Below, piece by piece: positions 39,442 through 42,146 of a stretch of 64,000 nt of DNA (the stretch's first letter is position 1; every line of letters begins with the position of its first letter). Both the position numbers and the translations under genes were made by a program. Under the pieces are notes generated by a model. The model searched no databases, was not told the DNA's origin, and saw only the letters and a list, made by a program, of their open reading frames with translations. Source of the stretch: Burkholderiales bacterium (GTDB lineage: Bacteria; Pseudomonadota; Gammaproteobacteria; Burkholderiales; Burkholderiaceae_C); the NCBI GenBank assembly GCA_947372465.1, contig CANBTT010000012.1:1-64000 (forward strand). Reading direction: 5' to 3'.

Positions 39442-40479
39442 TTGAGCACGAGTCGCACATTGATCATTGCTCCTCAATGGATTGGGGATGCGGTCATGAC
39501 CCAACCCCTGCTGTCTGAGTTGACGCGCCAAGGCCATGACTTGACCGTGGCAGCCCTGCCATGGGTGGCGCCCGTGTATGAGGCCATGGCAGAGTGCAAA
39601 CACACCTTGGTGTTGCCCTTTTCGAGGGGTTCGCTGGAGTGGTCTAAAAGACGTGATTGGGCGCGCAGCATTCAGGGGCAATTTGATGAGTCCTACGTTT
39701 GTCCCAATTCTTTCAAGAGTGCGTTGTTGCCCTTTTTGGCTGGCATTCCTTTGCGTGTGGGGTACACGGGAGAAATGCGCTTTGGTCTCTTGAATCGTCG
39801 ACTGAGCAACCCGAGCAAACAAACTCGCTCAAGCATGGTGAAGTTTTATCTGGCCATGTCTCAAATGCGGGCCAAGGCTCCCGAGGTTTTGCCCACGGAG
39901 GGGCTTGTGCCAAAGTTGAAGATAGACGCCCAACTGCAACAAACGGTCTGGGCACGCTTTGGTTTGCACGAAAAACAATACGTCGCCATGGCGCCGGGTG
40001 CAGAGTATGGGGATGCAAAGCGTTGGCCCGAGGAGAGATTTTGTGAACTGATTGCAAACACTGAACGCCCCGTCGTGTTGTTGGGTTCGGCATCGGACCG
40101 AGCTGTTGGAGATGCAATTGTGCAAGGGGTCAAAGCCTTGGGTTTCTCGCATGTCAGGAACTTGGCTGGGCAAACACAGTTAAGTGAGGCCATGGCCATG
40201 ATTGGTGGCGCAGCGGGTTTGGTGTCCAACGACTCGGGCCTGATGCACATTGCCGCCGCTTTGGGCGTGCCACAAGTGGCCTTGTTTGGCTCCTCTTCTC
40301 CAGAGCACACCCCTGCCTTGTCCAGTAAAGCGCAGATGATTTGGCTCAAATGGGATCCCACCTACCAACCCGCTTTGGCATGTGCCCCATGCTTTAAGCG
40401 TGTTTGCCCATTGGCTCACAAGCGTTGCTTGTGGGACATCAGCGCGCAATCTGTGCTGGCGCGCATGAGGGCGTGGTGA
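39442..40479 (+). CDS. waaF: ADP-heptose:LPS heptosyltransferase II
   Basis: WaaF adds the second heptose of the LPS inner core. The 345-residue GT9 glycosyltransferase has IIAPQWIGDAVMTQPLL at the start, MAPGAEYGDAKRWP and SNDSGLMHIAAALGVPQVALF in the C-terminal half. The start codon is TTG. It is the last plus-strand gene before the group I intron-like element and converges on the histidine kinase. Confidence 0.93.
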   Translation: MSTSRTLIIAPQWIGDAVMTQPLLSELTRQGHDLTVAALPWVAPVYEAMAECKHTLVLPFSRGSLEWSKRRDWARSIQGQFDESYVCPNSFKSALLPFLAGIPLRVGYTGEMRFGLLNRRLSNPSKQTRSSMVKFYLAMSQMRAKAPEVLPTEGLVPKLKIDAQLQQTVWARFGLHEKQYVAMAPGAEYGDAKRWPEERFCELIANTERPVVLLGSASDRAVGDAIVQGVKALGFSHVRNLAGQTQLSEAMAMIGGAAGLVSNDSGLMHIAAALGVPQVALFGSSSPEHTPALSSKAQMIWLKWDPTYQPALACAPCFKRVCPLAHKRCLWDISAQSVLARMRAW

Positions 40480-40499
40480 TTCGTGTGGATTAAACGGCG

Positions 40500-40736
40500 C
40501 CGCTTTGAGGGGCCAAGTGACAGCGGTGGACCCATGATGGATTTAACCGTGGGTCCCAGAAGTAGAAATCGCAATTGTTTCAATGCTTACATAAGACAAT
40601 GCCGAGCCAAGCTTTTGGTAGAGCATCATCCGTTGAAGGTGTAGAGACGAGACGGCGCCCGCCTAAGTGCAAAGGCGGACATGCATAGGGTGACAAGCAT
40701 AGCCCAAAGAGTGAGCTAGCACTTCTAGTAAATGCG
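40500..40736 (+). ncRNA. Group I intron-like relic (IC3 type), plus strand
   Basis: This 237-nt stretch in the 278-nt gap between waaF and the histidine kinase carries the conserved core of an IC3 group I intron. GCCGAGCCAAGC (40601-40612) and GGTGTAGAGACGAGACGGC (40638-40656), then CCCGCCTAAG, match the Azoarcus tRNA-Ile intron in order and spacing. AAGCATAGCCC (40695-40705) matches the S element. Hairpins fitting P8 (CCGCCT/AGGCGG) and P9 (AGTG/CACT) follow, and a 9-bp hairpin lies at 40528-40556. The P7 strands (GACGA and TAGCC) no longer pair fully, and no tRNA halves flank it, so splicing is unlikely. Ends are approximate. Confidence 0.72.
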
Positions 40737-40757
40737 TGAATTTCCTTAGACATTTAC

Positions 40758-42146
40758 TTACACACCAACGCTGAGCACCTGCAGACCCCCTGTTTGTATG
40801 GGTCGACCTTGGGTGTCTGCTCTCAAGGGCAAGTTGACTTCAAAAACACTGCCCCCACCTGCTCTTGGCACGTGTTGAACAAAACCATGGTGTCGATGCG
40901 CAATCGATTGCACCAAGGCAAGTCCAAGTCCAACACCTTTGTCAGACTCGTCTTTGCCAGGCAAGCGAAAGAAAGGTTTGAAGATCTGATCGCGCAGTTC
41001 CAAGGGGACGCCTGGGCCCAGATCGGATACGCTGATCAACACGCGCGAGTGCTCGAGCACCTCCAAACGAACTTCAACCCCATCGATTTGGCCACTGTGA
41101 CGGATCGCATTGTCAATCAAATTGCGCAACAAGCGACGGATCAGTCTGGGTATACAAATGAGTTCAATGCTCTGGGGATGGGGTCCCAATTCAAGCGAAA
41201 TTTTTGCTCTTGAGCACTCTTCACTGGCCAGTCCCGTCAAGTCCAAGCCCTCAAAGCGGCCCACATCAACGTTGGTGGCATCCAGTCTTGAGGCGAGCAA
41301 AATTTCATCGATCAACTGATCGAGCTCAGAGATGCTTTTCTTGACCTCATCGATGAGGGGCGGGTTTTGAGTGGCGTCCATCAACTCCAAGCTCATGCGA
41401 ATGCGCGTGAGCGGCGTTCTCAACTCATGGGAAGCATTGGCCAGTAAAGATTTATGGGCCAACACCAGGGCCTCGATTTGACTTGCGGCGTGGTTAAAGC
41501 GTTGCGCTAAAAACCCGATCTCATCCTCGCCTTTGGCATCAACGCGCGTTGACAAGGCGCCTGTGCCCCATTGCTCAACGCCCGCTCGAAGGGATTCTAG
41601 GCGCCGGGTCAAACGGCGAATGATGGGATAGGTTGCCAAAGCGACAGCAATGGCGACCACCACCATGGACCAGACAAAACCAAAGCGGGGTAAAAAGGAG
41701 GTCTTCAGTGCAGGACTGGGCAAATGAATGTGCAGCACTTGACCATCGCTCAATTGAACCAAAAACTCTGGCCCGGGCCCAAATTGGCCTTGTGCAAGAG
41801 AGGGATGGAGGGTTTCAGCGGGTGTGTTTTGAAGCGTTTGTGTGGGGTCGGGGACGCGCTTGGCAAAAACGTCTTGTTGCGCCAAGCGTCTGGGGTTGTT
41901 GAGTTTGAGGGGCTCATCGGGACTTGCAAGATCAGAGCCCCCGTTCTCGGGTGTTTTGAGAAGTCGCACAAGACCTTGCCCCAACACAACGCCTTGCTCT
42001 GAGCGCACCACAACCTCTTTGAGCGGCGGCTCGCGGTAGATCTTCATGACCCATGTGGACAGCAAGCTCAAAGCGGCGATGCTCAACACAACGGCCAACC
42101 AAATGCGCGCGTACAGGCGGTTCATCAATGCCCGAAAAATCATCAC
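40758..42146 (-). CDS. Sensor histidine kinase, RstB-like
   Basis: A 462-residue inner-membrane sensor. Membrane segments lie at about 14-34 and 156-174 around a periplasmic loop; HAMP follows. HisKA has the phosphorylated His240 (NASHELRTPL), and the ATPase domain has NLIDNAIRHSG, DLGPGVP and GVGLGLALV. It is encoded 51 nt downstream of the response regulator and is its partner. The signal sensed is unknown; a link to RstB is by overall layout only. Confidence 0.9.
   Translation of the reverse strand: MMIFRALMNRLYARIWLAVVLSIAALSLLSTWVMKIYREPPLKEVVVRSEQGVVLGQGLVRLLKTPENGGSDLASPDEPLKLNNPRRLAQQDVFAKRVPDPTQTLQNTPAETLHPSLAQGQFGPGPEFLVQLSDGQVLHIHLPSPALKTSFLPRFGFVWSMVVVAIAVALATYPIIRRLTRRLESLRAGVEQWGTGALSTRVDAKGEDEIGFLAQRFNHAASQIEALVLAHKSLLANASHELRTPLTRIRMSLELMDATQNPPLIDEVKKSISELDQLIDEILLASRLDATNVDVGRFEGLDLTGLASEECSRAKISLELGPHPQSIELICIPRLIRRLLRNLIDNAIRHSGQIDGVEVRLEVLEHSRVLISVSDLGPGVPLELRDQIFKPFFRLPGKDESDKGVGLGLALVQSIAHRHHGFVQHVPRAGGGSVFEVNLPLRADTQGRPIQTGGLQVLSVGV

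Follow-up and report, generated by a model that had tools for sequence, protein, structure and literature searches.

The gap between the convergent genes waaF (39442-40479, + strand) and a histidine kinase (40758-42146, - strand) contains a degenerate group I intron relic at 40535-40725 of the + strand, with approximate outer limits, preceded at 40496-40534 (+) by a weak relic of a tRNA-Ile(CAU) 5' half. This stretch is very probably a pseudogene that arose by duplication of a tRNA-Ile(CAU) gene together with its group I intron. The relic is homologous to the intron of an intact tRNA gene elsewhere in the same genome, the insertion is shared with a sister genome whose copy retains the tRNA 3' half, and several of the conserved helices are mismatched. 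Since the intact copy makes the one at the junction an extra copy, the relic is most likely a fossil in the genome rather than a novel RNA.

Identification of the intron relic

Four group I intron-like motifs lie on the + strand of the gap: GCCGAGCCAAGC (40601-40612), GGTGTAGAGACGAGACGGC (40638-40656), GCCTAAG (40661-40667) and AAGCATAGCCC (40695-40705). An earlier, sequence-only reading had recognized these motifs at 40601-40705 and placed them between convergent waaF and histidine kinase genes. Both points hold: the motifs are at these positions, their likeness to group I introns is well above chance by blastn and by a genus-specific covariance model, and Pfam assigns Glyco_transf_9 to the upstream gene and HisKA/HATPase_c to the downstream one. 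The same reading had noted no tRNA half on either side, and ARAGORN indeed recognizes none there; it calls no tRNA in the window (the whole 64,000-nucleotide stretch analysed) and none at this locus (L003) when introns are allowed. No open reading frame of at least 60 amino acids is found within the gap, hence no homing enzyme is seen.

When the gap (40480-40757) was used as a blastn query against 61 genomes, matches were obtained in 12 of them, the genome of origin included. The second match in that genome, on contig C21, shows 83% identity over 64 bases (query 40597-40666; E 8.2e-13). It corresponds to an intron inserted directly after the anticodon, CAT (CAU), of an intact tRNA gene. ARAGORN labels this gene tRNA-Met; from its likeness we take it to be tRNA-Ile(CAU). 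Likewise, we take the relic to resemble the Azoarcus BH72 tRNA-Ile(CAU) group I intron, with IC3 as the presumed subgroup. The P6 and P8 elements of the relic differ from those of the present C21 copy, and its source may therefore have been another or an older copy. From the phage collection the query returned only two records, both of one Agrobacterium phage (a 58-base query stretch at 81%), and from the plasmid collection no match.

The generic Rfam family RF00028 gives no match at its gathering score in the whole window, and none even at E 10 on 40440-40800; this test is weak, because the intact C21 intron also falls short of the family cut-off (44.1 vs 50 bits). The covariance match by which the sequence-only reading proposed to check its claim is thus absent up to E 10, and the conservation of the 40601-40705 core in relatives, its other check, is borne out in one sister genome. 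A DnaX match on 40440-40800 (11.5 bits, E 5.2) was taken as chance.

A genus-specific covariance model, R1, was built from 19 introns out of 21 cores obtained by motif search, after removal of L021 and L024, which nearly duplicate retained rows; L017 (from G033), among the introns used, has no 5' exon. On the window, R1 matches 40557-40712 with 55.0 bits (E 9e-13), and on the ectopic copy of the sister genome G079 it scores 49.4 bits. Four tRNA introns that the motif search had missed, and that therefore served as controls outside the model, reach 162.8 (L037), 163.4 (L039), 159.1 (L040) and 136.6 bits (L101). An intron at another tRNA position in G033 scores 61.4 bits, and introns of this other-position class elsewhere in the genus score 44-58 bits. 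Of 299 genomes drawn from the whole family, 65 contain an R1 match at E 1e-6, and many of the introns there score 39-92 bits. The R1 score alone does not identify the source, and the model is not specific to the tRNA-Ile(CAU) intron class. Homology to tRNA-Ile(CAU) group I introns is found by both blastn and R1, the latter scoring other group I introns alike, and the assignment to tRNA-Ile(CAU) follows from the blastn match and the tRNA 3' exon of the sister copy, not from the R1 score. Across the genus, R1 finds 41 places in 32 of 84 genomes at E 1 or better; a 31-base match in G005:C42 (20.7 bits) was set aside as too short.

The shared insertion in the sister genome

The waaF gene of G079 is 91% identical to that of the window, and an insert at the same waaF/kinase junction is 87% identical over 40480-40713. 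In the sister, the end of the intron is followed by AATCCTTTGCTCCAGGGTTGAAGTCCCTGAC, of which 28 of 31 bases correspond to the tRNA 3' half, a match that none of 1000 shuffles equalled. Pairwise alignment indicates that the window lacks this half: the site at 40714-40726 (+), whose junction is approximate, marks where the sister continues into the 3' end of the intron and then the tRNA 3' half. The sister copy therefore retains part of a tRNA exon in register with its intron, and the window itself carries a weak 5' trace. This trace is the better of several alignments tried, and its significance depends on the portion compared, sixteen combinations having been tried in the shuffle tests. For the 5' exon alone, 120 of 1000 shuffles are as good in the window, no better than chance, vs 3 of 1000 in the sister; for the 5' exon together with the start of the intron, the counts are 3 and 74 of 1000, respectively.

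The insert is carried by two genomes only. Matches to waaF number 64, in 63 of the 84 genus genomes, and among the 30 of these 64 that were fetched as loci R1 matches two, the window's own and that of G079. Comparison of R1 and waaF places across the 84 genomes likewise finds both on one contig only in G000, the genome of the window, and in G079. Of 16 relatives' loci with a kinase match, the gaps of 13 were read, those of L052, L054 and L056 being left aside on account of a partial kinase match about 1 kb from waaF; these three gave no R1 match in the search of the 30 loci. Among the 13 gaps the insert occurs in G079 alone, the others measuring 14-136 bases between alignment ends.

Probable decay of the ribozyme core

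The helices of the relic were compared with those of the sister copy and of the intact tRNA introns of G000 and G079 on hand-chosen strands, all on the + strand in the window. In the P7 helix, which holds the guanosine site of group I introns, the 5' strand (40646-40650) pairs with the 3' strand (40700-40704) at three of five positions in the window and at four of five in the sister, vs five of five in both intact introns. P3 (40552-40557 with 40654-40659) has one mismatch in each ectopic copy and none in the intact introns. For P4, where the 5' strand (40569-40574) faces a 3' strand at 40600-40605 located by R1 and the pairing comparison, two mismatches are counted in the window and one each in the sister and the two intact introns. 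The three P6 pairs (40606-40608 with 40638-40640) are intact, and P8 (within 40659-40692) is still able to form, either as 40660-40664 with 40688-40692 or as 40659-40664 with 40673-40678, both fully pairable. Of the 82 alignment columns at which all 19 model introns agree, 16 differ in the window and 19 in the sister. A functional group I intron would be expected to have an RF00028 match, a complete P7, flanking exons and a 3' splice site; in the window the first two are lacking, the 3' exon present in the sister is missing, and no tRNA is called.

In the core (40597-40712), 9 of 116 positions differ between the two ectopic copies, which is less than at all pooled four-fold sites of both neighbouring genes (74 of 331, p 3e-4) and less than in the gap's 5' portion (21 of 117, p 0.03). 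The apparent conservation against the pooled sites vanishes when only four-fold sites in the neighbouring thirds of both genes are used (14 of 116, p 0.38). The core thus diverges at about the local four-fold rate, and weak, low-level or past constraint may have acted on it. Differences between window and sister tend to fall off the invariant columns (6 of 82 vs 13 of 74, p 0.08). No two-sided compensatory change between the copies is found in the helices compared. Folding energies give z values of -1.30 for the window, -0.37 for the sister and -1.20 for the intact intron, with 19, 61 and 24 of 200 shuffles, respectively, folding as well, and the test has little power since even the intact intron reaches only -1.20.

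Other copies in the genus

Further broken copies are present in the genus. G019:C84 is nearly full length and appears decayed by eye, and G033 carries at 183 kb an intron with its 3' exon and no 5' exon. Pieces of the intron 3' end occur in G081 and G089, each standing alone with a tRNA 3' half attached, as would result from displacement by an integration event (L120:1562-1674 and L121:1549-1660; R1 29.8 and 19.1 bits). G087:C14 was not counted as a broken copy, because it is cut by the contig end and its 5' half is intact. In G033:C2, three intron-bearing copies of tRNA-Ile(CAU) type lie within 32 kb (183-215 kb; L099, L100, L101, L126, L127); one of them lacks the 5' exon, and in another the 5' half recurs about 190 bases upstream. 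Beside two of them are integrase-like stop-to-stop reading frames of 480 and 473 amino acids, the first with a Pfam integrase SAM-like domain and the second with no Pfam match. In the genome of the window, a phage-integrase-family gene (L124:1882-3141) adjoins tRNA-Arg(ACG) on C21; the intact tRNA gene with the intron lies about 1 kb away. The broken copies and the G033 reading frames suggest that mobile elements may move intron-bearing tRNA genes in the genus.

The tRNA(CAU) gene also hosts a second class of group I intron, inserted elsewhere in the gene and apparently immediately 5' of the anticodon (L041, L042, L043, L044, L100, L105, L106, L107). ARAGORN prints tRNA-Leu(UAA) for it in G065, G029, G071 and G018, and by eye the class is also present in G033 at 195 kb, G015, G085 and G030. 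At L035:267-564 (G068:C237) a tRNA-Leu(UAA) gene contains a group I intron. Its contig is 3.9 kb long and its genome is listed at 5% contamination, so the intron is possibly foreign.

Origin of the relic

Taking these observations together, a copy of the tRNA-Ile(CAU) gene with its intron would have been placed by duplication in the waaF/histidine-kinase junction in an ancestor of the window species and G079. The intact copy having stayed elsewhere, the one at the junction would have been redundant and free to decay: the 5' exon would have eroded, pairing would have been lost in P7 and P3 and, in the window genome, also in P4, and a deletion there would presumably have taken both the 3' end of the intron and the adjoining tRNA 3' half. 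The relic would thus have lost splicing and is now most likely functionless. The sequence-only reading had offered, among other possibilities, a leftover of tRNA loss; a leftover it is, and the loss of the tRNA is unsupported because an intact intron-bearing tRNA(CAU) gene persists at C21.

That reading had also considered an intron outside its normal niche, and indeed the absence of a recognizable tRNA half beside the intron in the window would suit an intron that moved alone into the intergenic site by reverse splicing or homing, as a mobile intron in a new niche. The sister copy largely contradicts this by carrying the tRNA 3' half at the expected place in the same junction, and no homing enzyme is seen among reading frames of at least 60 amino acids in the gap, which makes such a move extremely improbable. 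Its further suggestion of a structured RNA with a new role finds no positive support, P7 being broken and the core diverging at about the local four-fold rate. That the relic was recruited between the two genes as a structured RNA, such as a regulator or a transcript end, could be argued from the lower divergence of the core relative to the pooled four-fold sites and to the 5' part of the gap, and from the still pairable P6 and P8. Against it, the four-fold sites of the neighbouring thirds diverge about as slowly, the folding energy is unremarkable (in a test of little power), two-sided compensatory changes are not seen in the helices compared, and a search of 40300-40900 finds nothing resembling a promoter or a terminator. 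Recruitment is accordingly very unlikely, and it is equally doubtful that the decayed core has been kept as a small regulatory or transcript-ending structured RNA at the waaF/kinase junction in this species pair.

A further proposal is that the relic was left by an integrative element targeting an intron-bearing tRNA gene, which would make it an att-type copy that was displaced or carried along. The proposal is the duplicated-pseudogene explanation with a named carrier. It draws on the integrase-like reading frames adjoining two intron-bearing copies in G033, one with a Pfam integrase domain, on the lone intron 3' ends with tRNA 3' halves in G081 and G089, and on the Pfam integrase gene beside tRNA-Arg near the intact copy. 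However, no integrase was found by Pfam among the four neighbouring window proteins scanned, the second G033 reading frame and that of G089 have no Pfam match, and what remains is more than a displaced half, comprising most of the intron and possibly a 5' trace. Such a carrier is thus rather unlikely, though less so than either of the preceding alternatives, and the pseudogene of a duplicated intron-bearing tRNA gene remains the preferred reading.

Comparison with known systems and implications

Compared with the bacterial tRNA-Ile(CAU) group I introns, the relic is alike in the order and sequence of its P4, P6, P7, P3' and P8 elements, the likeness to Azoarcus being presumed. The intact copy in the same genome also agrees with them in sitting directly after the anticodon. 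The relic differs in its mismatched P7 and P3 and its further P4 mismatch, and in the lack of a functional tRNA around it and of a 3' splice site. Bacterial tRNA pseudogenes and displaced tRNA fragments are redundant decayed copies that persist while an intact gene is kept elsewhere. The relic is likewise such a copy, and it differs in carrying a group I intron, which accounts for most of what is still readable. Among the titles and abstract openings searched in the literature, none describes a bacterial tRNA::group I intron copy in decay, which does not prove its absence in print.

These findings indicate that what looks like an orphan ribozyme can in fact be a fossil left when an intron-bearing tRNA gene was duplicated. 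Such a fossil escapes a generic family model and is detected by a genus-specific one. The findings further hint that duplication and breakage have affected intron-bearing tRNA genes of this genus repeatedly, in some cases next to integrase-like genes.
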